Below are positions 15,772 to 34,981 of a stretch of 64,000 nt of DNA, one piece after another. The position numbers were made by a program, and so were the translations under genes. Under the pieces are notes generated by a model. It had not been told where the DNA came from, did not search any database, and was given only the letters and a program-made list of their open reading frames with translations. Location of the stretch: contig OMWS01000006.1 in assembly GCA_900314825.1 (NCBI GenBank), positions 1-64,000 of the forward strand. The letters are read 5' to 3'. The stretch's first letter is position 1, and each line of letters opens with the position of its first letter. The stretch comes from an uncultured Veillonellaceae bacterium (lineage in GTDB: Bacteria; Bacillota; Negativicutes; Selenomonadales; Selenomonadaceae).

Positions 15772-17781
15772 TTATTCGTTCAAAGCGACAGGCGTCTCTT
15801 CCGCAGCTTCACCGGCCGTGATAGCAGCGCTGACAGCTTGCGTGTCCGTCGCAGCGACAGCGGTTGTGACATTGCCGTCCTGCGTCTTCTGGTCGCTGTC
15901 TTCCGCACGACCCTGCGTCGGCTCGTACGCATTCAGCACGCTGAGCTGGAGGACTTGCTTCTCCGTCGTCGTGAGGTCGGCGTTTTTGATGCCCTGGAGG
16001 ATGCCGATCACCTGGCCAGCGGCAGCGCGCTCCTGCGTCGCGTCATTGAGCTTCTCGATGGTATTGACGAGCGCTTCCTGACGTTGCGCGAGGTTCGCGT
16101 TCTTCTCGATGACCTCTGCCGCCATCGTTTCGCCGCTCGCGATGTTCTTCGCGTCTTCGGCGTTAAATGGCTGTGCATTCGGATCCTGCGTCGGATCCGT
16201 CGGCGTGACCGGCGTCATGGGCGTGTCACCGCCGCCCGGATTGTCCGTCGAGCCGCCGCCCGGGTTGTCCGTCGCATCAGCTTCCGAGGCTTTGTCTACG
16301 ACAATGCCTTCCGTTTCATCATAGTGCATGACAGAGCCTTCGCCCGTATTCAGATTTTCTTTGGAAGCGACATTGATCGTACCATCAATGGACAGCTTGT
16401 TGCCGAAGATATCGACATCTTCCTCGCTTCCCCCTGGTGTGACGCTGCTCGTCTTATCAATCTTGACAGTATTGCCAGCACCAGCCGTCATCTTGTTGCC
16501 TGTAATCGATTGGGCGGCGGAGATGGTAATCGTACCCGCGCTCTTGACGTTCGTACCATTCTGGAGCGTAACGGCACCACCTTGGATGCCCGTATCGCCC
16601 TGCTCTTCATTGGCACTGGTATTGGCCAAAGTGCTCGTGATGGTCGTCTTGTCGAGCGTGATGGCGTTGTCCTTCGTCGCCGCCGTGACATCCGTCCATG
16701 TCGGGTTGTCGTTTTCATCCATGGACGTCTTGATCGTGTTGCCGGCATAGACGCCCGTGACCTGCTTGCCCGTGATCGTGCTGTTCTTGACATCGACCGC
16801 GCCGCCCATGAGCTGGACTTGCTCGCCGTCTTTGATCGTCAGGCCGTCCGCCGTGATCGTGTTGTCCTTTGTCGCGTTCGTCGTGAGCGTTTGTCCCGCA
16901 TCCGTCTGGCTCGTCGCCGCCGTCACATAGACGCTGCCGTCCCCCGCGAGGTTCATCGTAGCGCCGCTCATATCGACCTTGCCGCCTGTCACCGTCGTAT
17001 TGAGGCTATCGGACGTGTTGTTCACCGTGCCATGGAAGGTCACCGTGTTTGCGTTTGTTGCCGTGACATTGCCCATCACATCCTGATAGTCGATATCACC
17101 GCCGTGCATCGTGATTTTATTGCCGGCTGCCACATTCAGCGCCACATCTTCCGTATCGTCATCGGCCTGATCGCCCGTCATCGTGAAGACGACGCCATCT
17201 GCGACATTCACCGTGCCGCCGAAGAGCGCCAGAAGATTGTCAATGTTGATCTTTGCGCCTTTCGCAATCGTCAGCGCACCTGCCGTGCCATTGCCGCCCA
17301 AGGTGCCTGTGCCTGTGATGCCGGTGTCTTCCTCTGTCGCGAAATTCATCTTTTTGAATTCTTCATCCGAAAGCGCGAGCGTCGAGAGGACGAGCGCATG
17401 CGCATCAATCACGGCGTTGCTGCCGACAACGATGCCGTTCGGGTTCACGAGGAGAAGCGGCTGGCCGCCCGACTGCTTCAGCGTGCCGAGCAGTTCCGAA
17501 ATCTTCGCGCCTGTCACGCGGTTGAGGAGCGCGCCGTTCTCCGTGTTGAAGTTCAGCGTCTCGCCTTCCTTGATGCCGAATTCCTGCCAGTTGATGATAC
17601 TGTTTTTATTTGCTGTAATTGTCGCGCCGCTCGTGACTTCGCCATTCGTCAGGCCGGTCACATCACCGGAAGCGACCGTGCCGCCGGTTGGCATAGCGAA
17701 GGCGGGAGCCGAGAGCGCAAAGCAAACGCATGCCGTCAGAAGCGCCTGACGCGTTTCATGATTCCATTGCATGATATTCAA
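15772..17781 (-). CDS. Two-partner secretion exoprotein (TpsA, haemagglutinin-like)
   Basis: Large exported protein, 669 residues. The signal peptide ends near AFAMP. The next 250 residues form the TPS secretion domain, with NIINWQEF-like (SIINWQEFGI) and NPNGI motifs that the TpsB partner recognises. The middle is a repetitive beta-helix region rich in T, N, D and G. A Pro/Gly spacer (NPGGGSTDNPGGG) leads to a helical C-terminus rich in Ala and Glu. At 669 residues it is short for a haemagglutinin, so it may be a small adhesin. It starts 9 bp after tpsB. Confidence 0.85.
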   Translation of the reverse strand: MNIMQWNHETRQALLTACVCFALSAPAFAMPTGGTVASGDVTGLTNGEVTSGATITANKNSIINWQEFGIKEGETLNFNTENGALLNRVTGAKISELLGTLKQSGGQPLLLVNPNGIVVGSNAVIDAHALVLSTLALSDEEFKKMNFATEEDTGITGTGTLGGNGTAGALTIAKGAKINIDNLLALFGGTVNVADGVVFTMTGDQADDDTEDVALNVAAGNKITMHGGDIDYQDVMGNVTATNANTVTFHGTVNNTSDSLNTTVTGGKVDMSGATMNLAGDGSVYVTAATSQTDAGQTLTTNATKDNTITADGLTIKDGEQVQLMGGAVDVKNSTITGKQVTGVYAGNTIKTSMDENDNPTWTDVTAATKDNAITLDKTTITSTLANTSANEEQGDTGIQGGAVTLQNGTNVKSAGTITISAAQSITGNKMTAGAGNTVKIDKTSSVTPGGSEEDVDIFGNKLSIDGTINVASKENLNTGEGSVMHYDETEGIVVDKASEADATDNPGGGSTDNPGGGDTPMTPVTPTDPTQDPNAQPFNAEDAKNIASGETMAAEVIEKNANLAQRQEALVNTIEKLNDATQERAAAGQVIGILQGIKNADLTTTEKQVLQLSVLNAYEPTQGRAEDSDQKTQDGNVTTAVAATDTQAVSAAITAGEAAEETPVALNE

Positions 17782-17790
17782 TCTCCTTCC

Positions 17791-19278
17791 TTAGAAACTG
17801 ATCGAGAACGAAACGTTCCATCTCCGGTGGTTCGCGTGAGGCGCGCTGCTCACGAGCGTCTCGTCCGACACATCATTGATGATCTTCGCATAGTCGACGG
17901 CGAGCGCGATGTGGTTCTTCGCATCCGTGTAGCGCAGGCCGAGTCCTGTCGACGCGAGGTCTTCATAGTGCTTGCCGCTCGTGTTGTTCGTCAAGTTGCC
18001 GTAGTCGAGGAAAGCAAGGAAACGCAGGTTCGGCGCGACCTCCGGCGTATAAAGTTCGAGATTGCCGATGAAGCCCTTGTCCGCGCTCGCGATCGTGCCG
18101 GCGAAGCCGCGCACCGTGTACATGCCGCCCGCACCGAGCTGCGCGAGGATTGGCATGTGGTCATCCGTATACTGGCCGCGCAGGCGCGTATTCAGCAGCC
18201 AATCCGACTTGCTCCTGAGCTGATAGTTCACATCGGCCGAGCCGAACGTGAAATGCTGCTTGCTGCCCGGCGCGACCATCTCATAGTCGTCATCATCACC
18301 GCCGAGGTTCGTCGTGACGCCGACCTGATACGAAAACGAGTGATAAAGGTCGCGATTGTTGTGCTCAAAGCCGAGGCTCGCAAGCATCATATCGTATGAC
18401 TGATCCGGATTGTTGATGGTCTGGCCGGCCATCGAAAGCGAGCTCGTGATCTTGGAATAGCGATAATCGAGCGCCGCCGTCAGCGCATCCTTTTCGCGCG
18501 ACGTGTAAGCAAGATAGTGCTGATAGCGCAGGCCGACATTCTGCCCGAGGCCTGCGGCCTGGTAATCGAGGAAGCTGCGGTACGCAGACGGCGAGATGTT
18601 GCCGTTGTCAACGTTCGAATAGCTGTACGAGAACGTCAGCGCGTCCCCGGCATGCGGCAGCAGCGTGCGATACGAGACAGCCGCCTGCTTCACGTCATCG
18701 AAATGCTCGTCCGGCGACGTCACATACGCCACGCCAAGCGTATCCGCACGTTTCGAAATATTATTATTGATATAACTCAATGTCGTGCGCCAATCGCCCG
18801 TGTAATCGTTGCCCGTGTTCGCAACCGCGAGCGTCACGCGGTCGTTGTCACGCGCCTCGTTCGCGACTTTCACCCGGAACGTGTTGTCGTGGTTCGAGAC
18901 GAACGTGGCATTGAGCTTCGCGGCGCCTGTATCATTGACGAGCTGGATTTCTTTCGACAGCTCATGGATGTTCACCTGATCGTTCCGGAGCGCGGGCAGG
19001 AGCTTTTCCACCGCCGCCTCCGAAAGGCTCGACGAACTCTCGATCGTGACGTCCGTCACGGGCACCGTCACGCGATCTGCGCGCACGGCCTGCTCCGTAT
19101 GCTTGCCCTGCTGCTGGCGTGCGAGCTCGTCGCCCGCCTGATCCTGTGCAATCTCATGTTCTGTCGTTTTATCGGTCGATGCAGCCGATACCGGCGTGCC
19201 GAACATCGTTGCTGCCCCGATGCCAATCAGCATGGCCGTCAAGAAACGACGCCATCCCTTTTCTTTCTTCTCTTTCAA
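17791..19278 (-). CDS. Two-partner secretion outer-membrane transporter (TpsB)
   Basis: FhaC/ShlB-type outer-membrane pore that exports the adjacent TpsA. About 495 residues: signal peptide (to PVSAAS), a POTRA-like region near residues 80-180 (LLPALRNDQVNIHELSKEIQ), then a 16-strand barrel with the VRGF signature in GGMYTVRGFAG and a C-terminal F (SFSISF). A TTG start at 19278 is proposed because AAGGGAAGGACCGGG sits upstream and it gives a basic start to the signal peptide; an ATG at 19317 or 19341 would add about 13-21 residues before it. Confidence 0.88.
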   Translation of the reverse strand: MKEKKEKGWRRFLTAMLIGIGAATMFGTPVSAASTDKTTEHEIAQDQAGDELARQQQGKHTEQAVRADRVTVPVTDVTIESSSSLSEAAVEKLLPALRNDQVNIHELSKEIQLVNDTGAAKLNATFVSNHDNTFRVKVANEARDNDRVTLAVANTGNDYTGDWRTTLSYINNNISKRADTLGVAYVTSPDEHFDDVKQAAVSYRTLLPHAGDALTFSYSYSNVDNGNISPSAYRSFLDYQAAGLGQNVGLRYQHYLAYTSREKDALTAALDYRYSKITSSLSMAGQTINNPDQSYDMMLASLGFEHNNRDLYHSFSYQVGVTTNLGGDDDDYEMVAPGSKQHFTFGSADVNYQLRSKSDWLLNTRLRGQYTDDHMPILAQLGAGGMYTVRGFAGTIASADKGFIGNLELYTPEVAPNLRFLAFLDYGNLTNNTSGKHYEDLASTGLGLRYTDAKNHIALAVDYAKIINDVSDETLVSSAPHANHRRWNVSFSISF

Positions 19279-19367
19279 AACCCGGTCCTTCCCTTCCGAT
19301 TCATCGATATCCCCCATGGGAAACGATGAAATACTGAACAAGCTGTCCTTCAGCTATACTTAAGCGA

Positions 19368-22939: not shown

Positions 22940-24217
22940 TCACTCCATTTCCGCGCGGACGAGCAGCACCCAGTAATCGCTGCCATTGGCGGCGCGGTGG
23001 CCGAGGCCGAGCTCGGTGAACGAGGCGCTGAGGAGGTTGACGCGGGATTCGGGATCATCCATCCACGCCTTGACGACGTTCTCGGGCGTCTTCGGCCCTT
23101 TTGCGATGTTCTCGGCGAGCGCGTAGTCGCCGCTGTTCATGACGGTGAAGTACGATTCGCCATTCGGCCGCGTATGCGAGTAGTCCTGCTGGATCTCATC
23201 GGCGCGCACGGAGGCGGCGACGGCGAGTTCGCCATTGATCTTGAGCGGCTTGCGGCCTTTCTTCTTGCGCTCGGCGTTCACGAGCTGCAGAATGGTTTTC
23301 TCGTACTGGCGCACCTCGTCGACCGCACCGCTTCCGATGCCCACGGGGGCGTCGAAGCCGGCAGGGGGTCTCACGCCAAGGTCTTCCGCCTTGCGCATGT
23401 CCCGGACATACCTGATGATGTAGTCTCCTCTGCCGGGCTGGAGCTCGTTCGCCTTCCGCGCGTCCGAGATCGCGCGGTCATAGAGCTTCATCCAGAGGAG
23501 CAGACCGGCACGGCTCTCGTAGATGCCGGCGTCCGAGGGATCGAGCCCGACGGCCGTGTCCATGTCCTTGAGGGCGTCGTTGTAGCGCCCCATCCTCTGA
23601 TAGAGTCCTGCGCGGGAGATGTACTCGTAGGCGAAATGCGGCTTCCCTTCGCGGAGGCGGATGACGGTGTTCCGGTCTTGAAGCGCGGCATCGTACTGGC
23701 CCTGCATCTCATAGGCCACCGTCCGCAGATCGTACGCCGTGCTGTTCGAAGGGTCCAGTGCAATGGCCTTGTTGCAATATTCGATGACCTTGTCCGTGCG
23801 CTGCTCGTCGAAGAACACGTCGGCGCGCATGGCGTACGCCTGGCTGCTTCGCGGGTCGATCTGGATGGCGGCGTCAAACATCTGCGCCGCCTTGTCCTGC
23901 TGCATCATCCCCATGTACGAATTGCCGAGCCCGAGGTAGGCGCGGACGCAGTGCGGGTCGAGCTGGAGCGCGCGTTCGAAGTACGGGATGGCAGCCCGAT
24001 AATCCGCCTCGAAATCGCCTTGCGGCAGCCACGATCCATTCTGATCGAACGAGGCAAATTGCGTCGCCTCGCCCTGCTCGCACCATTCTTCGGCCGTCGT
24101 CGGCTCGGCGCAGACGATGGCGGCGGCAGGCGTGAACGTGACGGGCGCGGTGAGCACACAGCCAAGCGCGAGCGGCAGGGCGGCGGCGAGATATTTCCAC
24201 GGGCGTCGTTTCTTCAT
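22940..24217 (-). CDS. Exported TPR protein with C-terminal CAP/SCP domain
   Basis: 425 residues. Signal peptide (residues 1-35), then about six TPR units (from AIPYFERALQLDPHCVRAYLGLGNSY through AISDARKANELQPG), then a CAP domain (about 300-425). The CAP core reads INGELAVAASVRADEIQQDYSHTRPNG and AENIAKG...VVKAWMDDPESRVNLLS, as in bacterial YkwD-like proteins. CAP domains of bacteria have no settled enzymatic role; TPRs suggest protein contacts. It is the last gene of the cluster, 24 bp after the preceding one. Confidence 0.85.
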   Translation of the reverse strand: MKKRRPWKYLAAALPLALGCVLTAPVTFTPAAAIVCAEPTTAEEWCEQGEATQFASFDQNGSWLPQGDFEADYRAAIPYFERALQLDPHCVRAYLGLGNSYMGMMQQDKAAQMFDAAIQIDPRSSQAYAMRADVFFDEQRTDKVIEYCNKAIALDPSNSTAYDLRTVAYEMQGQYDAALQDRNTVIRLREGKPHFAYEYISRAGLYQRMGRYNDALKDMDTAVGLDPSDAGIYESRAGLLLWMKLYDRAISDARKANELQPGRGDYIIRYVRDMRKAEDLGVRPPAGFDAPVGIGSGAVDEVRQYEKTILQLVNAERKKKGRKPLKINGELAVAASVRADEIQQDYSHTRPNGESYFTVMNSGDYALAENIAKGPKTPENVVKAWMDDPESRVNLLSASFTELGLGHRAANGSDYWVLLVRAEME

Positions 24218-24241
24218 GAGATTCCCTCTTTTCTCAAAACA

Positions 24242-25516
24242 TCAAATACCAATCGCGTCATCGACATCCTGATAAAAATGCTGGAGCATCTTGCGGATGG
24301 CGTCGTTGCAGCTTCCGGCGGTATCCATGTACATGCGGCGTAAGAGCGTGCGGCCGGTCGCGGCCTCGACAAGCTCGAACGTGGCTTCGACGTGGCAGTC
24401 GAACGACGTGTAGCCGTATTCGTCGCGGATGCCGGTCGTGTAATATTTGCGCTGCATCTTGTGCTCGACGCCCTTGAAGTCCTTGCGCGTGAACGGTTCC
24501 GTACGCTCGAGGATGCGGTACGTCGTGCACGTCGACGGGTGATGCGTCTCGACGATATGCGCGTCTGCGAGCGTGCCTTGCACGTAGTAGCGTCCGCCGT
24601 CCGGCGCCGTGTCGATGCGCACATGTTTCAGCGTGCGTGCGGCCTCGTCCTTCATGGCGTACCAGACGGCGTTCTGACGGAACGTGTCACCAGCGAAATC
24701 GTCCGGCATCGTGACCTCGCGGAAGCCGAGCGTCGGTGCGGAGGCCGGCACGCGCTTCTGCTCTGCGCTTTTCAATTTGCCCCAGTCAATCGCGAATATC
24801 TGTGCAACGGTCGCAAACGACTCGGTCGTGGCCCCGCCACGGTAGTCGCCGAGGTATGTCATGGCGGGCTTGTGCGTATAGGCGTCATAGAGCGTCGCCT
24901 CGATCTCGAGCTGTTCCGCCCGCCCGGGATGCGCAGGAATGATGTGATCCTGCGTCCACGAACGGTATCCGAGCTTGCCGGACACCTCGACATCGTATTC
25001 TGTTTCGACGTAATAACTTTCCATCGGGACACCAAGGCGGCGCTCCGGCGCGGTATCATCTTGGAATTTGTGTAAGCGGATGTGCGGCACGAGGTAGCCC
25101 TCGGCGCCCGTCGCATCGTAGACGGCCGTCGCACGCGCGTCCTCGTTCGCGAACGGCTGATGGAGCGCCGCATAGGCGGGGTTGTCGCGGAAAATCTGCT
25201 GTTTTTCGAGCTTCGCCTCGCCTCCGTCATCAAAATAGAAGAAGTTCGTGTTCTTCACTTTCTTCTGCATCGCCGCTGCGAGCGCGCCGTCGAAGCCGCC
25301 ATGGTAGTAGCTCACAGAGTAGGCGGAATCGCCCGTCATGGGGAACAGGATGATTTTCTTGAACGTCGTCACGCGCTCATTTGCCGGGACGTTTTCGTCC
25401 ATCCAGAGCTCGCCACTGTAGGCGGCCGTGACGGCAGGGAACGTGAGGACGCTCGCGCTCGCGAGCGTCGCGCCGAGCGCGAGGCTGCGACACAGGGAGG
25501 AAACGGTCGTTTGCAT
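24242..25516 (-). CDS. Exported protein, paralogue A of the cluster
   Basis: 424 residues with a clear signal peptide ending near VTAAYSG. It is a paralogue of the next upstream gene: both share WMDENV..NERVT..KKIILFP, a TGAEGYL-PHIR block, a YRSWT block, LYDAYTHK-AMT and APTLGF. No known domain is recognised. The start at 25516 has AAGGAGGCAGAACCC; the longer open frame upstream is a shadow of the neighbour. It probably works in the periplasm or at the cell envelope together with its paralogue. Confidence 0.75.
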   Translation of the reverse strand: MQTTVSSLCRSLALGATLASASVLTFPAVTAAYSGELWMDENVPANERVTTFKKIILFPMTGDSAYSVSYYHGGFDGALAAAMQKKVKNTNFFYFDDGGEAKLEKQQIFRDNPAYAALHQPFANEDARATAVYDATGAEGYLVPHIRLHKFQDDTAPERRLGVPMESYYVETEYDVEVSGKLGYRSWTQDHIIPAHPGRAEQLEIEATLYDAYTHKPAMTYLGDYRGGATTESFATVAQIFAIDWGKLKSAEQKRVPASAPTLGFREVTMPDDFAGDTFRQNAVWYAMKDEAARTLKHVRIDTAPDGGRYYVQGTLADAHIVETHHPSTCTTYRILERTEPFTRKDFKGVEHKMQRKYYTTGIRDEYGYTSFDCHVEATFELVEAATGRTLLRRMYMDTAGSCNDAIRKMLQHFYQDVDDAIGI

Positions 25517-25563
25517 GGGTTCTGCCTCCTTCGGGTTCCGTAGCGTGCTTTTTTGCCGGCCGC

Positions 25564-26874
25564 TCAGTCCGGCGCGCCGACGAGCTTGTCGATGTCGCGG
25601 TAGAAGTCGCCGAAGATGCCGCGCAGCGCTTCGGCATAGCGGTCTTTGTCCTCGCGGTCGAAATTCCGCTGGTAGACGATTTCGCCTGTGCGCGTGTCCT
25701 TCAGCCAGAGCGTGGCATTGACGTGATAGTAGAACGCGTTGTAGCCGTAGCAGTCCGTGACATCCGTCGAATAATATTCGCGCTTGCCCTCGTGCGCACT
25801 GCCCTTGCGGTCGTACCATGTGAATTTTTCTGTCCGGTCGAGATGCGGCGTCGTGAAGACGTGCGGGGCGATCCAGCGCTCGCCGCGGTCGAACGTGTAG
25901 ATCGTGCCGCCGGCCACATAGCGGCCCGCGCCGGGCCGGGGATCGACCTTGACGCGCTTCAGCGTGTCGCCGGCCTCGTCCTTGAACGCGTAGAAGATCG
26001 CCTTGATGGCGAACTCGTTCTGCGCGGCGTTTTCCGGCAGTTCGAGATTCTCGAAGCCGAGCGTCGGCGCACCGTCCGGGACGCGCTGCGCCTTGTCATC
26101 TTTCAGGCGGTTCCAATCGCCGGAGAAATTTTTCGTGATCTGCTCGAACGCATGGCTGGCATCGACGTCATAGCACCGGTAGTAATCGATGAGCGTCATG
26201 GCTTTTTTGTGCGTATAGGCATCGTACAGGGTGAAATCGAGGTCGAGCATCTGCAGCCGGCGCGAGCGCTCCGGGATGCAGTGCGACTCCGTCCAGCTGC
26301 GGTAGCCCTGCTTCGACTGGTAGCCGTTCGGCCCGTTCGACACGTCGTAATACGTTTCCTTCTTCACGTCCACCCAGGTCGCGGGCGAGACGTCCGTGCG
26401 CTCGTTCCAATAGCGGATATGCGGCAGCAGATACCCCTCTGCGCCCGTCTTGTCGTAGACGGCCTGGGCGCGCGCTTCTTCCGTCGGGAAGTGCTGCAGG
26501 AGCTCTTGGTACTCCGGCTTGTCGCGCAGGATCATCTCTTTTTCTTTCTTTTTGTCAGCAGCCTGCGTGTCATTCGGGTCTTCGAACCAGATGAAGTTCG
26601 TGTGCTTGATGCGCTTGTTGATGCGTTTCGCGAATTCCGCGTTCCACGCCTGATACTGGTCGGGACGGCCGTCCGGCGTCTGCGCGTCGCTGAGCGGGAA
26701 CAGGATGATCTTCTTGTATTTCGTCACGCGCTCGTTTTCCGCGACGTTCTCGTCCATCCAGATGTTGCCATGCGCGAACGCGAGCGCCGGGGCTGCGGCC
26801 GTCACGCCAAGCGCAAGTGCGATTCCGAGAGCAATGCCGCGCCATGGCGCACGTTGTGATTTCGTTTCGTTCAT
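25564..26874 (-). CDS. Exported protein, paralogue B of the cluster
   Basis: 436 residues with a signal peptide (cleavage near ALAFA). It shares at least six sequence blocks with the protein at 24242-25516, including IWMDENVAENERVTKYKKIILFP and the LYDAYTHKKAMT segment, so the pair arose by duplication. No family is recognised. A charged insertion around residues 85-100 (NDTQAADKKKEKE) distinguishes it. GAAAGGAATTTGT precedes the ATG. The genes are 47 bp apart on one strand. Confidence 0.75.
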   Translation of the reverse strand: MNETKSQRAPWRGIALGIALALGVTAAAPALAFAHGNIWMDENVAENERVTKYKKIILFPLSDAQTPDGRPDQYQAWNAEFAKRINKRIKHTNFIWFEDPNDTQAADKKKEKEMILRDKPEYQELLQHFPTEEARAQAVYDKTGAEGYLLPHIRYWNERTDVSPATWVDVKKETYYDVSNGPNGYQSKQGYRSWTESHCIPERSRRLQMLDLDFTLYDAYTHKKAMTLIDYYRCYDVDASHAFEQITKNFSGDWNRLKDDKAQRVPDGAPTLGFENLELPENAAQNEFAIKAIFYAFKDEAGDTLKRVKVDPRPGAGRYVAGGTIYTFDRGERWIAPHVFTTPHLDRTEKFTWYDRKGSAHEGKREYYSTDVTDCYGYNAFYYHVNATLWLKDTRTGEIVYQRNFDREDKDRYAEALRGIFGDFYRDIDKLVGAPD

Positions 26875-26887
26875 ACAAATTCCTTTC

Positions 26888-27511
26888 TCAAATCGCCGCC
26901 CGGACATCCGCTGCAAGGTTCGTGGCAGCATCTTCGATGGCCTGGCGGATGGCATCTTCGGCGCCGACGTCGTCGCGGTGCACGACGACGTGATACGTGA
27001 GCTCGGCCTTGCGCCGTGAGTCCGCTTTCGTCGTGAAGACGACGGTGCCCGTATGCATATCGATGATGCGCAAGCTGAGCTCGGCGTAGACGGTCTTGTC
27101 CTTGCCCGAGAGCACGAGCACGCCGCTCTGCGCCTTCACGTTGCTGAGATGCGTGAGGTAGCCGCAGGCGACGTAGTCGGCGGCGGGCGTGAGCTCCGGC
27201 GGCACGACGCCGTCCCCGAGGCTTCCCATGAGCGCCGCCTCGTCGAGACGCAGGCGCGTGGTTTCGCTGGTGAAATCCAGCACGCGGTAGCGCGGATCGC
27301 CCGCAAGCTCCGTGAAAAACGTGTCCTGCGCATCGCCGAGCATGGCACGGATCGGCGTGTCGATGTCCGACATCGTGATCGCGGTCTTTTCGACGCGCGC
27401 CTGGAACGGCGCGACAAGGATGGCGGGCGCCTCGGCAGAGGCCGTCCACGGGACGACGAGCAGCGCGAAGAGCACGGCCATCGCGCACACAAAACGCGGC
27501 AGAAACTTCAT
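26888..27511 (-). CDS. Exported CsgG/TolB-N-like protein
   Basis: 207 residues with a signal peptide ending ASAEAP. The following strand, AILVAPFQARVEKTAI, and FFTELAGDPRYRVLDF look like the start of CsgG or TolB-N type domains, in which a periplasmic alpha/beta core assembles at the outer membrane. LSLRIIDMHTGTVVFTTKADS near residue 150 fits the same fold. The call is by pattern and needs a profile search. It begins one base after the stop codon of the upstream gene. Confidence 0.6.
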   Translation of the reverse strand: MKFLPRFVCAMAVLFALLVVPWTASAEAPAILVAPFQARVEKTAITMSDIDTPIRAMLGDAQDTFFTELAGDPRYRVLDFTSETTRLRLDEAALMGSLGDGVVPPELTPAADYVACGYLTHLSNVKAQSGVLVLSGKDKTVYAELSLRIIDMHTGTVVFTTKADSRRKAELTYHVVVHRDDVGAEDAIRQAIEDAATNLAADVRAAI

Positions 27512-27512
27512 G

Positions 27513-28355
27513 TCACTTCACCCCCGCTTTCACGCGCTTCGCGAGGTCTTTCGCCAGCGCCTGCGCCTGGCCTTCGAGCACTTCGCCGAGCAGCGTGTCG
27601 ACGGCCATGCCCTTGCCCGTCTTGCCGAGGCCGAAATTGATGAGCTGCGCGCTTTTCTTGTCTTCGAAATGATGCTCGTAGACGCGCCCCGTCGCGGCAT
27701 TCACGAGATAGTAGTCGAGCGAGGACTTCATCTTCTTGCCCTTCGTCTCACGGTCGGTGTGCGACGCGAAGATGCCGTGCTTCAGGCGCACGTCGACGTC
27801 CTTGATGTTGATGAAAAGCAAATACTGTGCGCCATGACGGTCGGCGATGGCCTTGGCGAGGCGCCGCTTGTCCGGCGAGAGCGCATACGTCGCGTCGGGC
27901 TGGCCGTGCCAGGCCTTCAGCCGCTCTTCATCATGGAAATAGCCGCGCCCCATGACGGCGTCAGCATAGTGCGCGAGCTTTGCGGCCGTGTCGCCGCGGT
28001 CGTACTGATGGCCGTGCACGATGGCGTCCATGTGGATCTCAGAGAGGTCGCCGGCCTCGCCGCCCGCGCCCGTCGCGGCATGGCGGCCCTCTTCATTCGT
28101 GAGGTCGACGCTGCCCGTGTAGGCGAGGCCCTGATCTGCGAGCGCCGCGCCGAGCTTCTCGGAAAATGTATCGAAATAGCGCGCTTTGAGCTCGTCATCG
28201 CCGTAGCTCTGCACTTCGCCGAGGAAGATGGACGGGCCCGCCTGCTGGAACAGGCCGCCGGCCGCCGCCGGGCGGGGCAGCGCGAGGAAAGCGGCGACGC
28301 AGAGAAAGAACGCGAGCAGTTGGATCGTCTTTGTTTTTGTCAATTGCAACTCCAT
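27513..28355 (-). CDS. Exported CsgG-like protein of unknown function
   Basis: 280 residues. Signal peptide ends near PAAAGG. GPSIFLGEVQSYGDDELKARYFDTFSEKLGAALADQGL resembles the first strand-helix of CsgG-type domains, and YLLFINIKDVDVRLKHGI plus DYYLVNAATGRVYEHHFEDKK matches their later strands. The ATG at 28355 is preferred to the upstream GTG because AAGGAG lies too near the GTG. It is cotranscribed with the gene at 26888. Confidence 0.6.
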   Translation of the reverse strand: MELQLTKTKTIQLLAFFLCVAAFLALPRPAAAGGLFQQAGPSIFLGEVQSYGDDELKARYFDTFSEKLGAALADQGLAYTGSVDLTNEEGRHAATGAGGEAGDLSEIHMDAIVHGHQYDRGDTAAKLAHYADAVMGRGYFHDEERLKAWHGQPDATYALSPDKRRLAKAIADRHGAQYLLFINIKDVDVRLKHGIFASHTDRETKGKKMKSSLDYYLVNAATGRVYEHHFEDKKSAQLINFGLGKTGKGMAVDTLLGEVLEGQAQALAKDLAKRVKAGVK

Positions 28356-28383
28356 TTGCGCATACACTCCTTGGGCGGCACGA

Positions 28384-29508
28384 TCAACGCGAGACGGAGA
28401 GCTTCGCCGTCGTGCCCGTCACGCCGGCGAGGAAGATGCCGAGATTCGACGTATTCTTCAGGCGCGTGATGAGGCCGGTCGGGCTCTCGCTCGTCTCGAC
28501 GGAGAGGATGGCCTTGTCGCCGTTCGCTTCGCGCAAGTAGACGTTGCGCACAGACGAAATCGTGCGCAGATCGGCCATGAGCTGCTGCACGGCCTCCATG
28601 TCGGACGTGAAGACGTCGAGCTCGACGGACGCGCCCGTCGCCTCGCTGCTGAAGTGGCGGAATTTCTCTTCGAGCTTCTGCGCAGCCTGCGCCGCGGCGT
28701 TCTCCGAAGCTTTCTGCTCGGCCATCTCGTCGCTGTTCTCGACGCCTTTCGCCGAGACCTGGTACGTGGCGACGATGTCGCCCGTGTCAAAGCGGAGCAC
28801 CTTGACGGAGAGGATGGCATTCGCCGAATGCAAGAGCGTATCCGCATAGCCGCCGCCGTAGCCGTCCGGCAGCTTGATCGTCTGCGCGTTCTGCTGGACG
28901 CGGCCGAGCGCGAGGTAGTCGGCGCCGAGGCTGCTGCCGATGGCCGATGGCTGCGTGCTGCCGCTGTAGATGCGCGCGAGGAGCTGCGCGTCGTTGAGGC
29001 TCGCGGCGACCTGCGGGTCGATGATGTGGTGGAAGCCGAGCGACAGCAGCTTGTCCGCGAGCGCCGTCTCAGCTGCGAGGTTGTGCCCGAGGACATTGCC
29101 ATAGCGGTCCTGGTCGAGCACGACGACGGCGATGCGCGGATCGTTCAGCGCCATGACCATCTGCAAGTTGCTCATGAGGCCGGCATCCGGGCTCGTGTCG
29201 ACATCGATGCGCGCGCGCACGCGGACGAGGCCGCTCTCATCCGTCTCCTCGAGCACCTGCACATCCTTGACAAAGCCCTGCGACTTCGTCAGGATCTCGT
29301 CGAGCTGCACCTCCAGATTTCGCGTGAGCGTTTTCGAATCGACGAGCGTGCCGACGACCTCCTCGACCGCGATGCGCGACGCGTCCTTGATCGCCGCCTG
29401 GCGATCCGTGCCGACGCCATCGACGACGACGGCCTGCGCGAAGCCCGTGTGTGCCGCGAGCATCATCGCGAGCCCCAAAAGCAAAGATTTGCCGAACTGT
29501 TTTTTCAT
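28384..29508 (-). CDS. Exported FlgT-like protein
   Basis: 374 residues with signal peptide (cleavage near GFAQA). Residues 27-110 resemble the FlgT N-terminal domain (VVDGVGTDRQAAIKDASRIAVEEVVG), and 120-260 a FlgT middle-like alpha/beta domain (RIAVVVLDQDRYGN...IIDPQVAASL). The C-terminal segment 290-345 resembles a small ferredoxin-like domain. FlgT belongs to the Vibrio flagellar H ring, but no flagellar gene is near. It has the same plan as the protein at 31622-32782. Only about 40 bp separate it from a strong upstream terminator. Confidence 0.7.
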   Translation of the reverse strand: MKKQFGKSLLLGLAMMLAAHTGFAQAVVVDGVGTDRQAAIKDASRIAVEEVVGTLVDSKTLTRNLEVQLDEILTKSQGFVKDVQVLEETDESGLVRVRARIDVDTSPDAGLMSNLQMVMALNDPRIAVVVLDQDRYGNVLGHNLAAETALADKLLSLGFHHIIDPQVAASLNDAQLLARIYSGSTQPSAIGSSLGADYLALGRVQQNAQTIKLPDGYGGGYADTLLHSANAILSVKVLRFDTGDIVATYQVSAKGVENSDEMAEQKASENAAAQAAQKLEEKFRHFSSEATGASVELDVFTSDMEAVQQLMADLRTISSVRNVYLREANGDKAILSVETSESPTGLITRLKNTSNLGIFLAGVTGTTAKLSVSR

Positions 29509-29546
29509 AAGAATCCCCCCATTTGCTCATGTGCCTCCGTAGAAAA

Positions 29547-29579
29547 AACCGCCTGCGGGAACACTCCCGCAGGCGGTTT
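29547..29579 (-). terminator. Strong terminator inside the exported-protein cluster
   Basis: AACCGCCTGCGGGA and TCCCGCAGGCGGTTT form a near-perfect 14-bp stem with six T after it on the leftward strand. It lies between the genes at 29621 and 28384 and must be read through, or bypassed, for the distal genes to be expressed. Confidence 0.85.
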
Positions 29580-29620
29580 CTCGGACGGCGGATGCGTCCG
29601 TCTATTCCGTAACAGCGATA

Positions 29621-30586
29621 TCAGCGGACGAACACGACATTCGTCTTGTCAAGGAAGCCCGTCGCGCCATTCTCGATGAGGACGCGGTTCGCGTCGGCGA
29701 CGGAGATCACCGGGTTGCCGTTGTGGTTGTCGAGGCTGACAGCCTTGACGACGAGCGGATTCGAGCCGGCACGCGTGGCGCGGCCCATGTCCGTCGTGTA
29801 GCCGGCCATGCCATTCGAAACGACCTTGTCATAGTCGAGGTTCTTGTAGCCATAGATGGCCTGGCCGTTCGCGTTCTTGATGACCGGGCTCATGACCGGC
29901 TTCAGGCCGAGGCCGCGGCAATCGACGATGAGGCCCGTGTAGCCGCCGACGGCAGAGCCGACCGGCGCGGCAGCGGCCGAAGAGCCCGTCGGCTTCGTCG
30001 GCTGTGTGACAGACGGCTGCGTGGACGGCGTCGTGGCCGAAGGCGTCGTCGTGCCCTGGCCGACCGTGACATTGACGCTGACGGACGTCGGCGCGGACGG
30101 CGCGACGCTCGCGACCGGCTCCGGGAACGTTTCCTTTACCGCCGGCTTCTCCATGACGGCGCTCGCGACGGAGTTCGTGACGCCGAACATCGGGACTTCC
30201 ATCGTGAGCTCGCAGCCGCCGTCCGACGTGTAGTTCACGCTCACGACGCGCGCGCCCTTGACCGTGGCCGCGACATGCGTCTTGACGACGTCCTGCGTCG
30301 TCATCATGAGCTCGACGGTCGAGTCCGACGTGACGTCGACGCCCTTGATGGTCTCGACGAGCTGGCGGTACGCGTCGCCCTGTGCGGCGCGGCGCGCCAA
30401 GGCACGGCGCTGCGTTTCGCTGACGGCCGTCGGGGGCGCGACGCCGATGCCCGTCGCCGTGACCTTGGAGTTTTCATAATCGATGACGCCCGTGCCATTG
30501 CTCATGGCGAAGGCGCTCGCCGCTGTCATGCAGACGAGCAGTGCTGCGACGGAAAGCGCCGTCAGCAAGCGGGAAATCTTCTTCAT
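29621..30586 (-). CDS. Exported LPP20-like protein
   Basis: 321 residues with a signal peptide (to ASAFA). Residues 40-135 resemble the LPP20 fold: VTATGIGVAPPTAVSETQRRALARRAAQGDAYRQLVE and the VKGARVVSVNYTSDGGCELTMEVPMFG strands. A Thr/Pro/Ser linker (about 170-215) leads to a C-terminal domain with repeated GLIVDCRGLGLKPVMSP-type strands. There is no lipobox, so it is probably soluble in the periplasm. AAGGAGGTCGGACTTC precedes the ATG. It has its own promoter. Confidence 0.72.
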   Translation of the reverse strand: MKKISRLLTALSVAALLVCMTAASAFAMSNGTGVIDYENSKVTATGIGVAPPTAVSETQRRALARRAAQGDAYRQLVETIKGVDVTSDSTVELMMTTQDVVKTHVAATVKGARVVSVNYTSDGGCELTMEVPMFGVTNSVASAVMEKPAVKETFPEPVASVAPSAPTSVSVNVTVGQGTTTPSATTPSTQPSVTQPTKPTGSSAAAAPVGSAVGGYTGLIVDCRGLGLKPVMSPVIKNANGQAIYGYKNLDYDKVVSNGMAGYTTDMGRATRAGSNPLVVKAVSLDNHNGNPVISVADANRVLIENGATGFLDKTNVVFVR

Positions 30587-30647
30587 GAAGTCCGACCTCC
30601 TTGTTCCAATCAAACATGGGACTTTCGTGGATTTTTGACACGCTCTC

Positions 30648-30676
30648 ATTATACGCGCAAAGCATCGTGTTGTCTA
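30648..30676 (-). promoter_or_regulatory. Promoter before the LPP20-like gene
   Basis: Leftward TAGACA (complement of 30671-30676), 17 bp, TATAAT (complement of 30648-30653), in a 135-bp gap inside the cluster. Confidence 0.65.
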
Positions 30677-30721
30677 TCAAAAATTCCTGAAAGCGCATCA
30701 TGTTTTTATGGATGCTGCATA

Positions 30722-31600
30722 TCAATGGACTTGCCAATACGTCAGTGTCTGGTCTTCCAAAGATCGCGCCGCATTGAGTCCCGCTTTATACAGGAAGAGA
30801 TCCAGCACCTTCGTCATATCAATGTCACGCAGCGTGTACGCTTCTTCAGCCGTGGCAAATGGCGTGCCTTGCGTCCCCCGAACCATGTCAATGCCCGTGA
30901 GGCGGATCGTGCCGCGCACGGTGACACCGTCCGCATCCTGCGCGATTTCTTCGACCTCGACTTCGCCGAGGACGGCGTTCGTGATTTCAGGATAATCGCG
31001 GTGGACGACAGCTCCGACATTGGACGTGAATGTTCCGTAGTCTTCCCCCGCGTGCGTTTTCATCGTGCCCGCCAGTTCGTCGAGCGCATTGTCCGTCGCG
31101 AAGCCGAGGTTCTGGAACGTCGTCTCAATGACCGTCGTCACTTTTTTCTGTCCTGTGTCTTCCATGCCAGCCGGCAGGCCGCGGACGCGCAGCAAAAAGC
31201 CCGTCTGGGCATCGCCGTGCTTCCGCTGGAGTGCACTGACCTCTTTGACGACGTCTGTGTGCAGATCCGCAAGCTTCACCGTGACCTTGCTGTACAGCTC
31301 GAGCCCGCCGTCGCCGTCCTTCTTCGATGTGACGTCCGGCGCTGTGGCATAAGCGCGGTAGTTTGCAAGCATCTTCTGATACACGCTCGCAGGATCGTCA
31401 TTCCGTGCCAGCATTTTCGACAGCGTTTTTTCCACTGCCTTGCGCTGCGCGTCGGCACGCGCAGCGGCTTCATCTCCCGCAGGCGAAACACCGCAGGCCT
31501 TGACCTCGATGAACGGCGGTGGCGCGGCCTCGACCGTCACCGCGAGCGACAACGAAAGGCAGCAGGCCGCGCAGAGCACCGCGAACCATCGTTTCATCAT
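30722..31600 (-). CDS. Exported protein with LPP20/FlgT-like N-terminal part
   Basis: 292 residues with a signal peptide (to TVEAAP). FIEVKACGVSPAGDEAAARADAQRKAVEKTLSKML resembles the opening strand and helix of FlgT-N/LPP20 domains, in which a strand with a G motif leads to AxxDAxRxAV. The C-terminal 180 residues hold alternating strands and helices without a recognised motif. It follows the protein at 31622 by 21 bp and is likely in the same transcript. Confidence 0.62.
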   Translation of the reverse strand: MMKRWFAVLCAACCLSLSLAVTVEAAPPPFIEVKACGVSPAGDEAAARADAQRKAVEKTLSKMLARNDDPASVYQKMLANYRAYATAPDVTSKKDGDGGLELYSKVTVKLADLHTDVVKEVSALQRKHGDAQTGFLLRVRGLPAGMEDTGQKKVTTVIETTFQNLGFATDNALDELAGTMKTHAGEDYGTFTSNVGAVVHRDYPEITNAVLGEVEVEEIAQDADGVTVRGTIRLTGIDMVRGTQGTPFATAEEAYTLRDIDMTKVLDLFLYKAGLNAARSLEDQTLTYWQVH

Positions 31601-31621
31601 GCGTATCCCCTCCGCACCTGC

Positions 31622-32782
31622 TCAGAACGTAAGGTAAATCTTCGCACTGCCCATGGCATTTTCGTCCGTGTCGCCTTCCTGGAGGCCTGGCACGGCGGCG
31701 AGGAGCGCTTCCTTGAGCTCATCCTGCGACGCGCATTCCGCTTCGACGAACATCTTGTAAGCACCCGTGCCCGTGAACGATCCGCGGATGACGCGGCCTT
31801 TCACCTGTTGGACCGCTTGCCGCAAAATCTGCGGCTGGCCTGCACGATCCGTGATGCCGTTGACGATGAGCGTCGCCTTGATGTGGCGTGCGCCGCCACG
31901 CGTCTCGCTTTGCACCGTCATGAGCGCCTTTTGGCCGAGCGATTCCACCGCGCGCTTCGTCGCAAGTTCCCGCGCTTTGTTGATGGCCTCCGAACGGTTC
32001 GCACCAACTGCCGTGAAGTAATCATCGAAGCTGTTAACTTCCGAGGATTCGAAGCCAACGATCTCAAACGACGCATGAGCCGTCGCCCGCCAGTTCGTGC
32101 CCACAGGCTCGACATCTGAAATAGCAAGCATGCCGCGCAATAGCGCATTCGCCTCGCCGCGCTCATTGCGGGCGAGCTGGCGAATTTTCGCGCTGACAGC
32201 GGGATCGTCGAGGTCTGTCTGCTTGTCCATGAAAACTTTTGCCGCATCCGCATCATGGACTGCGAAGCCCGCGTTTTCGAGCTTCGCCGCAACATACTTC
32301 ATGAGGCTGTCCGTGACCATGAGCTGGCCGTTTTCATCGCGGCCCGTGACAGCGACTTCGATGCCCGAGCGCGTCGTGCCCATATCCTGCATCGCCCGCA
32401 AGCGGCTCTCGAGGTCTTCGACGGCGGTCTTGATTCGCTGGTCGCTTGCATCGAGGTCCATACGGACGAAGTAGATGCCATCATGCTGGCCTTCCTTGAT
32501 GATCTTGTTGACGGTCACGAAACCGTCCGAATGCGCCAAGATCTCGTCACGCACGACCATGCCCATGTTCACTTCCGTCGTGCTCGTCACATGCACGCCG
32601 ACTTTCATCTCGACGAATGTGCGCATGGCGTCATTCATGGCTTCATCGCGCGCTTTCGCCGGATTCGACGGATCGACGGTCGCCTGTCCCTCGACGACTT
32701 CTGCATGGCAGACAGGCGTGCTAAAAGCGAGCGGCAGCGCGATTGCAAGCGCCGCTATCGCTTTCCCCAAAAACTTTTTCAT
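31622..32782 (-). CDS. Exported FlgT-like protein, second copy
   Basis: 386 residues, signal peptide ending near VCHAEV. The same order of parts as the protein at 28384: FlgT-N-like (VVEGQATVDPSNPAKARDEAMNDAMRTFVE), a middle domain (GIEVAVTGRDENGQLMVTDSLMKYVAAKLENAGF) and a C-terminal small domain (VKGRVIRGSFTGTGAYKMFVEAE). Identity between the two is low but the architecture matches, so they are probably paralogues that assemble together. GGGAGATGCGTA precedes the ATG. Confidence 0.7.
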   Translation of the reverse strand: MKKFLGKAIAALAIALPLAFSTPVCHAEVVEGQATVDPSNPAKARDEAMNDAMRTFVEMKVGVHVTSTTEVNMGMVVRDEILAHSDGFVTVNKIIKEGQHDGIYFVRMDLDASDQRIKTAVEDLESRLRAMQDMGTTRSGIEVAVTGRDENGQLMVTDSLMKYVAAKLENAGFAVHDADAAKVFMDKQTDLDDPAVSAKIRQLARNERGEANALLRGMLAISDVEPVGTNWRATAHASFEIVGFESSEVNSFDDYFTAVGANRSEAINKARELATKRAVESLGQKALMTVQSETRGGARHIKATLIVNGITDRAGQPQILRQAVQQVKGRVIRGSFTGTGAYKMFVEAECASQDELKEALLAAVPGLQEGDTDENAMGSAKIYLTF

Positions 32783-32795
32783 TACGCATCTCCCG

Positions 32796-33947
32796 TTACT
32801 TTTCCTGCTTCCCCATCTTCGTCGCAAGCTCGATCAAGACCTGCGTATAAATGTCCTTCGCATCGATGTCGACGGCATTGCCCTTGCCCTTGTCCTTGAG
32901 GTACATCTGGACGGCGTAGCCCGTCTCCGTGCGCTCGGGGCGCATATCGCTCTTTTCCGTCAGCCATGCCTTGTAAGCAACATCGCTGCGGACATCCGAG
33001 GCGTCCTTGCGCTGGACTTCCTGCCAGTTCGCACCGGAAAAATCAAGGTTCACCATGTGCATCGGCTCGGCCATCGCGAGGTCTACCATCCCGTCATCGC
33101 TGCGGAGCTGCATCGAGTACAGATTCGACGTGACGTCCTTCTGGTACGGCGCGGCGATGCCCGGTGGCAGGACGACCTTGCCCGTTTTCTTCTGGAACGC
33201 TTCCGTATAGAAATTCGCGATGATGTTGCGGATCTCGATGCCGTGCCCGTGGAACACTTGCTGTGCTTTCTTCGAGCTGATGCCGACATCAGCGACCTGA
33301 TACGTTTCCGGTGTCTCCTGTTTTTCTTCCCAGTCTTTCAAGACTTTTTTCGCTGAGGAAAAATCGAGGCGCTTCTCGATCATCTGCACCGTGATATCAG
33401 CATAGACATCGGCGAGCTGCTGCTCCGTAATCGGCGTCGTGATGAGGTTCTGGATATCCGCACCGAGCACTTTCTTTTCATTGAGCGGGATGACCGTCAG
33501 GATGCGCCAGCCTTCGCCATTCGCGCCCGCGCTGCAGACAGCCATGCCCATGCAGCTCGTGACGATCGATTTGTAGATGTCTTGGTCAGCTGCATGATAA
33601 TGCGTCGTGAACGCATCATCCAGCAGGACGATCGGCATGAGCCCGATCGGCGTCACGTCAGAGTAATCGTCCTGGATGCCGCTGACTTGCAAATCATTCG
33701 AAAATTTCACTTCGAACGGCAGTTTTTTCTGCGCCTGCAAGCTCTTGAGCTTCGCCGTCAACGCCTGCCGGATCTTTTCCTTGACGCCCGGCGATTCGAG
33801 GAGGCCGTTGTCTTCCGTCGAGATGGAGTAGACATTCGGCGTCCAATCCACGACGAGGCGTTCCTTCGCTGCGCATGTCCCGGCACCGGCAAAGAGGCTG
33901 GCGCCGAGCACGAGGGCAAGGCAGCGCTTCCAAACTGCGTGTTTCAT
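32796..33947 (-). CDS. Exported protein of unknown function
   Basis: 383 residues with a signal peptide (residues 1-26, cleavage near CAAKE). No family is recognised. The segment VTPIGLMPIVLLDDAFTTHYHA suggests a buried hydrophobic strand, and ILTVIPLNEKKVLGADIQNLITTPITEQQLADVYADITVQMIEKRL a helical domain. Cysteines at SCMGMAVCSAG could form a disulfide. GAGGTGACACG precedes the ATG. It is the second gene of the cluster. Confidence 0.65.
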   Translation of the reverse strand: MKHAVWKRCLALVLGASLFAGAGTCAAKERLVVDWTPNVYSISTEDNGLLESPGVKEKIRQALTAKLKSLQAQKKLPFEVKFSNDLQVSGIQDDYSDVTPIGLMPIVLLDDAFTTHYHAADQDIYKSIVTSCMGMAVCSAGANGEGWRILTVIPLNEKKVLGADIQNLITTPITEQQLADVYADITVQMIEKRLDFSSAKKVLKDWEEKQETPETYQVADVGISSKKAQQVFHGHGIEIRNIIANFYTEAFQKKTGKVVLPPGIAAPYQKDVTSNLYSMQLRSDDGMVDLAMAEPMHMVNLDFSGANWQEVQRKDASDVRSDVAYKAWLTEKSDMRPERTETGYAVQMYLKDKGKGNAVDIDAKDIYTQVLIELATKMGKQEK

Positions 33948-33965
33948 CGTGTCACCTCGCTGCGC

Positions 33966-34790
33966 TTACTCGGCCTGCATCGAGGCTACAGATGCTTCGA
34001 CATCCTTCTTGCTCGGCTCTTTGATGTTGTTTGCCTTATCGTAAGCCTTGCGGGCATCGTTGCGTTCCTTGATGCTCTTCTTGAGGAAGCCGATGATCTG
34101 CGTTGCTTCGTCAGCAGCCTCTTTGTACTCGTTGATCTGATTTTTGAGATCCTCGAGGTCTTTCGCATCCTTCAGCCCCTTCGCCGCTTCTTTTGTCAGG
34201 AAAGATGCATCGCGTGCCGCGAGGCCGCAAAGGAAGATGGCCTTGGCGCTGTCCGTTTTCGACCACGTCATCTGCTTCTTTGCGTTTTCTACCTTTTCCT
34301 TGTCTTCCGAGGACGTGAGCTCGGCGAGCTTCGCCTGCACGAGTTCCTTGCTCGGACGCGGCGTGCTCGTCGCATTATAAACATCGCTCATCGAACCGCC
34401 ACCGCTCAAGAGATTGTTCGCGATCGCGCCGAGCGCTTGGATATTAGAATCGCCCGAGAGATCCGTCGCAAGGCCGATCTTGTATTCCGATGCCGTGAAG
34501 CATCCCGTCGCGAGCATCAAGTGATTCCGCATGTCGTTGCGGTGGCTGTTCATGCCATCGAAGTTGATGCCGAGCGCCTTGTTGACGGCGTCTTTCGCCT
34601 GGCCTTTTGCGTCATCCGCGACCTCTTTCCCTTTCTTGTGGAAGATGTCACTGACGCCGCTGAACATGCCCGCTTCCGCGCGCTGCATGCCAAAAAAAGA
34701 GCCCCCGTCCACAGGTGCCGTCTGGACGAATTGTCCGGATACGGCCACGACTGCGGCGAGGACGCTGGTTGCCACGATGTTCTTCTTCAT
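33966..34790 (-). CDS. Exported helical protein, first gene of the cluster
   Basis: 274 residues with a signal peptide (about 1-40, ending AEAGM). The rest is largely helical, with Lys/Glu/Ala-rich heptads from residue 130 on (ELVQAKLAELTSSEDKEKVENAKKQM, SIKERNDARKAYDKAN), so coiled coils are likely. No family is recognised. It lies directly behind the strongest promoter of the region, so it may be the most abundant product. GGAG precedes the ATG. Confidence 0.65.
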   Translation of the reverse strand: MKKNIVATSVLAAVVAVSGQFVQTAPVDGGSFFGMQRAEAGMFSGVSDIFHKKGKEVADDAKGQAKDAVNKALGINFDGMNSHRNDMRNHLMLATGCFTASEYKIGLATDLSGDSNIQALGAIANNLLSGGGSMSDVYNATSTPRPSKELVQAKLAELTSSEDKEKVENAKKQMTWSKTDSAKAIFLCGLAARDASFLTKEAAKGLKDAKDLEDLKNQINEYKEAADEATQIIGFLKKSIKERNDARKAYDKANNIKEPSKKDVEASVASMQAE

Positions 34791-34840: not shown

Positions 34841-34869
34841 ATTCTAACGAATTGGGTCTTGTTTGTCAA
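34841..34869 (-). promoter_or_regulatory. Main promoter of the exported-protein cluster
   Basis: Leftward TTGACA (complement of 34864-34869), 17 bp, TAGAAT (complement of 34841-34846), about 50 bp before the first gene of the cluster. Confidence 0.75.
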
Positions 34870-34931
34870 TTCTTCATTGGTTTTTGTTTAATCTGCTTTC
34901 ATTGGCAACGGTTTCTGTGCAAAAAGCACAA

Positions 34932-34958
34932 AAAGCCTCCCCGGCAAAGGGAGGCTCC
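34932..34958 (-). terminator. Terminator of metQ
   Basis: AGCCTCCC and GGGAGGCT arms with TTTTTGTG after the leftward-strand hairpin, 24 bp after the metQ stop codon. Confidence 0.75.
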
Positions 34959-34981
34959 TGGTGCAGCGGTCAGACGCCGGC

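Follow-up and report, generated by a model that had tools for sequence, protein, structure and literature searches.

A Selenomonadaceae gene cluster combining predicted FlgP/FlgT_N-type and CsgG/PelC/FlgT_M-type proteins: a candidate flagellum-independent ring or disk scaffold of the diderm Firmicute envelope

The window analyzed here, a stretch of 64,000 nucleotides (contig OMWS01000006.1, assembly GCA_900314825.1) from an uncultured Veillonellaceae bacterium of the rumen (Selenomonadaceae), contains a cluster of eleven genes, g1 to g11, numbered in order of transcription. Judged by sequence profiles and predicted structures, nine of the eleven encoded proteins appear to be built from two folds, both of which are known from outer-membrane-associated rings. 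The explanation favoured here, to which we would give an even chance, is that the cluster encodes a scaffold of rings or a disk that lies beneath the outer membrane and does not depend on the flagellum. Its relatives remain clustered across genera, are confined to outer-membrane bacteria in a sample of the phylum, and also occur where the P-ring gene is absent.

Four proteins are of the FlgP/FlgT_N type. g5 exceeds the Pfam cut-off for LPP20, in agreement with a first-pass annotation of this DNA, which had proposed an LPP20-like part. In a PDB profile search, the g5 family matched FlgP chains at E values from 1e-23 (chain 9hmf) to 1e-8, with 5e-11 for Vibrio FlgP, and the C-terminal half of g5 matched 5jir (3e-10); we take 9hmf to be Campylobacter FlgP and 5jir to be a T. 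pallidum protein, assignments that draw in part on PMC12222027. According to that paper, the rings of FlgP assemble through an insert, a beta-hairpin that separates the SHS2 helix from the strand after it, and across the family ring formation correlates with this insert. Between the g5 family and FlgP of both Campylobacter and Vibrio, the alignment has no gaps in the helix-to-next-strand stretch that holds the insert, and the mutual alignment of g3, g4 and g6 has few or no gaps there. g6 matches Pfam FlgT_N below the cut-off (E about 1e-5), a match found in 13 of 18 members of its family. g3 and g6, earlier described as two FlgT-like plans, share one FlgT_N-type plan (hhalign 99.5% over 335 columns for g3 against the g6 family), g4 is related to the same family (97.7%), and the profiles of g6 and g3 also match the FlgP chain 9hmf. 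Two more distant g6-like proteins are encoded elsewhere in the same genome (L117, G000:C34, 8295-9725; L118, G000:C82, 4285-5352), and no other cluster family lies beside either of them.

The second group, of CsgG/PelC/FlgT_M type, was harder to place by sequence. The annotation had expected CsgG-like parts, and g7 and g8 are FlgT_M-like and CsgG-like, respectively: g7 matches Pfam FlgT_M at 7e-6, below the cut-off, and g8, with sub-threshold CsgG (E 0.02, score 14.7 against a cut-off of 20.8) and weak LpoB (0.21) matches, aligns at 97.6% in hhalign with a CsgG+FlgT_C family found in relatives. The Pfam scan gave no family for g1 and nothing for g2-g4, g9 and g10, and a PDB sequence search with g7, g8 and g9 returned nothing useful. 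As sequence methods placed neither g2 nor g9, their structures were predicted with AlphaFold2 (AF2). In the g2 model (pLDDT 81, pTM 0.82) the C-terminal half, residues 212-383, matched CsgG (Z 10.8), PelC (9.7) and FlgT (9.5), and the g9 model (pLDDT 81.5) matched PqiC (12.2), PelC (11.8) and FlgT (11.6), with CsgG among matches at Z 11-12, although Z scores in this range may also stem from a fold arrangement that is common. As both halves of g9 match, its model reads as a tandem of two CsgG/PelC/FlgT_M-like domains. The fold group retrieved in this comparison (CsgG/PelC/FlgT-middle/LptE/PqiC/TolB) is one of outer-membrane-associated periplasmic proteins, and it dominates the top of the match list; HpaA is also matched by both the g2 and the g9 model, and PelC and TraT entries are titled as dodecamer and decamer. 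CsgG and FlgT are themselves ring proteins. No match emerged when the sequence profile of g9 was compared with that of g7, or that of g2 with that of g9; these proteins are linked by predicted fold only. g10 is 41% identical to g9, with which it forms the paralogue pair noted earlier, and is placed in the same fold group on that basis. The annotation had left g2, g9 and g10 unplaced and had made its proposal depend on the predicted folds being related to each other; based on the models, g2 and g9 would join the CsgG/PelC/TolB_N/FlgT_M group, and g10 through g9. g11 has solid Pfam matches to TPR and CAP domains, as had been read from its sequence.

Conservation of the cluster in relatives, which had also been anticipated, holds in part: the genes stay clustered, but not as a single eleven-gene unit. 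By heuristic gene calls in the related genomes, the cluster consists of two separately conserved operons, g1-g5 and g6-g9, plus g11, which are fused in the window and in one close relative, RUG102 (L054). A single ancient eleven-gene unit is ruled out by the occurrence of the two operons apart. The order g1-g2-g3-g4-g5, headed by the g1 family, stands alone in two genomes, one from the same genus as the window (L104) and the other a Selenomonas (L105), and g2-g5 are present in L106 and L107. A block g6-S1-g7-g8-g9, in which S1 is another CsgG protein, stands alone in Selenomonas ruminantium and Mitsuokella, the position of g7 between g6 and g9 being conserved in both genera. One Selenomonas genome (G137) carries both blocks at separate loci (L035, L105). 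A third cluster type, g6-S1-F8-F7-S5-S1-...-g5, is often accompanied by secreted proteins with SH3, M23, NlpC/P60-like, ricin, dockerin or autotransporter domains. Dockerin type I domains were seen in secreted proteins in or next to g6-type clusters of Selenomonadaceae at L037:12605-13435, L078:10807-12459 and L080:6953-8182, and one of the three proteins also has ricin-lectin and SH3 domains. In Sporomusa, Pelosinus and other diderm Firmicutes only a trio is found, comprising CsgG+FlgT_C, g6 and g5, and its genes lie next to each other both in those two genera and in several other diderm Firmicute families. S1 and the CsgG+FlgT_C family score above the CsgG cut-off. g11 can be tied to the cluster through locus L121, where a CAP gene and a TPR gene, separate but neighbouring, lie immediately upstream of a g6 homologue. 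Outside the Firmicutes, g6 and CsgG+FlgT_C genes are neighbours on a Holophagaceae contig (L103, 9437-11805). Homologues in the same order elsewhere, together with dN below dS in all eight genes tested between the window and RUG102, indicate that the cluster genes are real.

The first four genes follow a different pattern of divergence. Between the window and RUG102, identity is 94-96% for MetN, MetI and MetQ and 93.5% for the hexapeptide-repeat (carbonic-anhydrase-like) protein encoded downstream, but 66-79% for g5-g9 and only 34-42% for g1-g4. In a third species (G101), MetQ is 94% identical to that of the window, and g2 and g4 are each 33% identical. g4 and g5 of RUG102 are closer to those of G101 (71% and 86%) than to those of the window (37% and 71%). 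The dN/dS ratio between the window and RUG102 is higher for g2-g4 than for g6-g9, a rough estimate near saturation. Within the genus, g1-g4 have therefore diverged almost as deeply as they have between genera, a pattern that points to rapid change or an exchange of alleles.

Co-occurrence was examined in 199 genomes of the phylum and 150 Negativicutes genomes, with statistics uncorrected for phylogeny and with Pfam FlgI (P-ring) as the sole flagellar marker. g6 is found in 13 of the 199 phylum genomes, all of them among the 49 with Omp85 (P = 3e-9, uncorrected for relatedness), in line with the tie to the outer membrane that the annotation had guessed. A strong g6 is present in 37 of the 150 Negativicutes, and a g5-family protein accompanies it in 36 of these, versus 12 of the 113 genomes without g6 (p = 4e-23). 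FlgP and FlgT are known as flagellar parts. One alternative is a flagellar accessory: a homologue of the H-ring or basal disk would decorate the L/P rings and, in species without flagella, be a relic or have been reused. The trio resembles the H-ring set FlgO/FlgP/FlgT (PMC6375700), and FlgI is present in 30 of the 37 Negativicutes carrying g6, in all ten non-Negativicute carriers and in the window's own genome, where flgI lies on another contig. The association outside the Negativicutes is, however, uninformative, because 42 of the 44 diderms sampled there have FlgI. FlgI is missing from seven g6 carriers, two Mitsuokella assemblies and a one-contig genome included, and every cluster type is represented among the seven; 59 genomes have FlgI without g6; and no flagellar genes were found among the cluster neighbours scanned, as the annotation had observed. 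Flagellar dedication is thus ruled out for the seven FlgI-negative carriers, and, judged by this marker, flagella do without the system and the system does without flagella. A flagellar accessory is on balance unlikely, and is the best-surviving of the alternatives.

The proposed scaffold would consist of rings, or a disk, formed in the periplasm from FlgP/FlgT_N-type (SHS2) and CsgG/PelC/FlgT_M-type subunits, acting much as the Vibrio H-ring (FlgO, FlgP, FlgT) or the Campylobacter basal disk does, with the dedication to flagella absent. g5 and g6 would make up the ring core, joined in most relatives by the CsgG+FlgT_C protein, while g7-g10 could be lineage-specific rings or adaptors on the same fold and g1-g4 a fast-changing module that faces a variable partner. 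Such a scaffold might brace a client that crosses the envelope, or the gap between peptidoglycan and outer membrane. Several points weigh against this explanation. A ring or oligomeric state is deduced from the folds, which also occur in non-ring proteins such as LptE. Attachment to the outer membrane is left unexplained, as no lipobox was detected in the window proteins, and the signal peptides were called heuristically. No counterpart of the trio's CsgG+FlgT_C protein was recognized in the window cluster, and g1 has no assigned fold. Finally, FlgI is associated with g6 above chance (30/37 versus 59/113, p = 0.002, uncorrected for phylogeny).

The next alternative in rank, which we consider improbable, is that the proteins act at the cell wall much as LpoB does, regulating the enzymes that synthesize or hydrolyse peptidoglycan, with any rings being incidental. 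LpoB matches occur in S1 (8e-12) and in 10 of 11 members of the CsgG+FlgT_C family, and some related clusters contain secreted proteins of the M23, NlpC/P60-like and SH3 kinds. CsgG, however, scores far above LpoB for the same regions, and the window cluster has neither a wall enzyme or SH3 protein nor a recognizable lipobox. Less probable again is an export portal, in which a CsgG- or PelC-like channel or collar would pass a polymer or protein to the surface. This would fit the matches of the g2 and g9 models to CsgG and PelC, the CsgG-like character of g8 and S1, and the dockerin, lectin or autotransporter-domain proteins of some related clusters, yet those secreted neighbours vary among relatives, and the window cluster yielded neither an outer-membrane barrel nor an inner-membrane pump or cargo. 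Lowest in rank among these, and very improbable, is the absence of any complex, the proteins being multiplied paralogues of two sticky periplasmic folds, each working on its own, for instance as a variable surface protein or an adhesin-like one of the HpaA kind; the HpaA matches and the unusual divergence of g1-g4 between close relatives, as often seen in surface proteins, are set against the fixed order of two operons over several genera, the near-obligate co-occurrence of g6 with g5 and a trio conserved across families, all of which argue for a joint function. A link to type IV pili, raised by a TsaP match of the FlgT_C domain, could not be judged by co-occurrence, as secretin is present in 144 of the 150 genomes, and anti-phage defence was set aside, PADLOC giving no convincing match.

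The cluster fills positions 22940-34790 with eleven minus-strand open reading frames separated by gaps of 1 to 135 nucleotides (Table 1). The co-directional arrangement reported in the annotation is therefore borne out, as are its signal peptides on all eleven products: a heuristic Sec-type call found a basic n-region, a hydrophobic core and a possible cleavage site in 11 of 11, and a pattern search, likewise heuristic, found no lipobox in any. The main promoter it placed ahead of g1, its proposed coiled-coil protein, coincides with a promoter-like site recognized by consensus match only, and eight such sites were found versus 2.8 +/- 2.0 expected.

Table 1. Genes of the cluster and associated signals, in window coordinates.
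Feature	Position	Strand	Description
Terminator-like hairpin	34931-34959	-	Intrinsic type, between metQ and the cluster; 12 pairs, T-rich tail
Promoter-like site before g1	34841-34869	-	Sigma-70-type, TTGACA-17-TAGAAT; 11/12, consensus match only
g1	33966-34790	-	274 aa, secreted (heuristic), fold unassigned; extra copies in some relatives
g2	32796-33947	-	383 aa, C-terminal domain CsgG/PelC/FlgT_M/LptE-like (AF2 model)
g3	31622-32782	-	386 aa, FlgT_N-type, plan as in g6
g4	30722-31600	-	292 aa, shorter relative of g6
Second promoter-like site, before g5	30648-30676	-	TAGACA-17-TATAAT; 11/12, consensus match only
g5	29621-30586	-	321 aa, LPP20/FlgP-like SHS2 domain and C-terminal domain
g6	28384-29508	-	374 aa, FlgT_N-type; anchor of all related clusters
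g7	27513-28367	-	284 aa, FlgT_M-like
g8	26888-27511	-	207 aa, CsgG-like
g9	25564-26874	-	436 aa, two tandem CsgG/PelC/TolB_N/FlgT_M-like domains (AF2 model)
g10	24242-25516	-	424 aa, g9 paralogue; missing from the RUG102 copy
g11	22940-24217	-	425 aa, TPR repeats and CAP domain

Elsewhere in the window, a two-partner secretion pair occupies 15772-19341 on the minus strand, with a TPS-secretion-domain protein (15772-17772) and a transporter of the ShlB/FhaC type (17791-19341). A secreted M48 peptidase with TPR repeats (60300-62147, minus strand) is possibly an envelope quality-control protease, and an SLH-domain protein (55608-56870, plus strand) is presumably an outer-membrane tether of the OmpM type.

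A published Negativicute FlgT/LPP20 system was not found in the open-access literature, nor was an account there of this combination of parts, its independence of the P-ring gene or its spread in diderm Firmicutes. The parts are of known kinds, and there is a fair chance that the machine is a distinct one. Somewhat short of even, and thus put forward tentatively, is the fuller proposal of an envelope machine not yet described: in diderm Firmicutes, a family of ring or disk assemblies that is independent of the flagellum, derives from an old CsgG/FlgT_C - FlgT_N - FlgP trio, has expanded to multi-ring structures in the Selenomonadaceae and bears in g1-g4 a rapidly diversifying module. Relatives of FlgP and FlgT lie in a conserved operon that, in the phylum sample, is confined to outer-membrane bacteria and is also present without the P-ring gene; this suggests an independent role for such rings. 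The trio offers a concrete three-gene target in bacteria with an evolutionarily important outer membrane, and could show whether a general envelope scaffold was the source of flagellar H-rings and basal disks.

Among known systems, Leptospira LipL46 (NF033164) is matched in part by g6 (residues 34-329, 4e-12), which lacks a lipobox and, with a score of 45.7 against a cut-off of 400, is not a member of that family. The CsgG curli channel and the PelC collar share their fold with the models of g2 and of both halves of g9, and the relatives of g8 belong to the CsgG sequence family: S1 and CsgG+FlgT_C exceed the curated cut-off, which g8 itself does not reach. Unlike CsgG and PelC, the window proteins do not appear to be lipoproteins, g9 and g10 have tandem domains, and neither curli nor Pel genes were seen among the neighbours scanned, no search having been aimed at csgA/B/E/F. 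The Campylobacter basal disk protein FlgP is resembled by the g5 family throughout the hairpin-insert region between SHS2 helix and second strand (PMC12222027), whereas g5 has an extra C-terminal domain related to 5jir, shows no lipobox by pattern search and belongs to a family that occurs with g6 and, in relatives, CsgG+FlgT_C, flagella not being obligatory. Compared with the Vibrio H-ring, the system differs in having no lipobox, no flagellar genes alongside and many paralogues, in occurring without FlgI in 7 of 37 Negativicutes with g6 (the window's genome has it), and in spreading FlgT-type domains over separate proteins, with FlgT_N in g6, an FlgT_M-like domain in g7 and FlgT_C only in the CsgG+FlgT_C family of relatives. 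In sequence domains and folds, nevertheless, the trio of an LPP20/FlgP-like, an FlgT_N and a CsgG+FlgT_C protein matches the H-ring set, with the g5 family as its FlgP-like SHS2 member.

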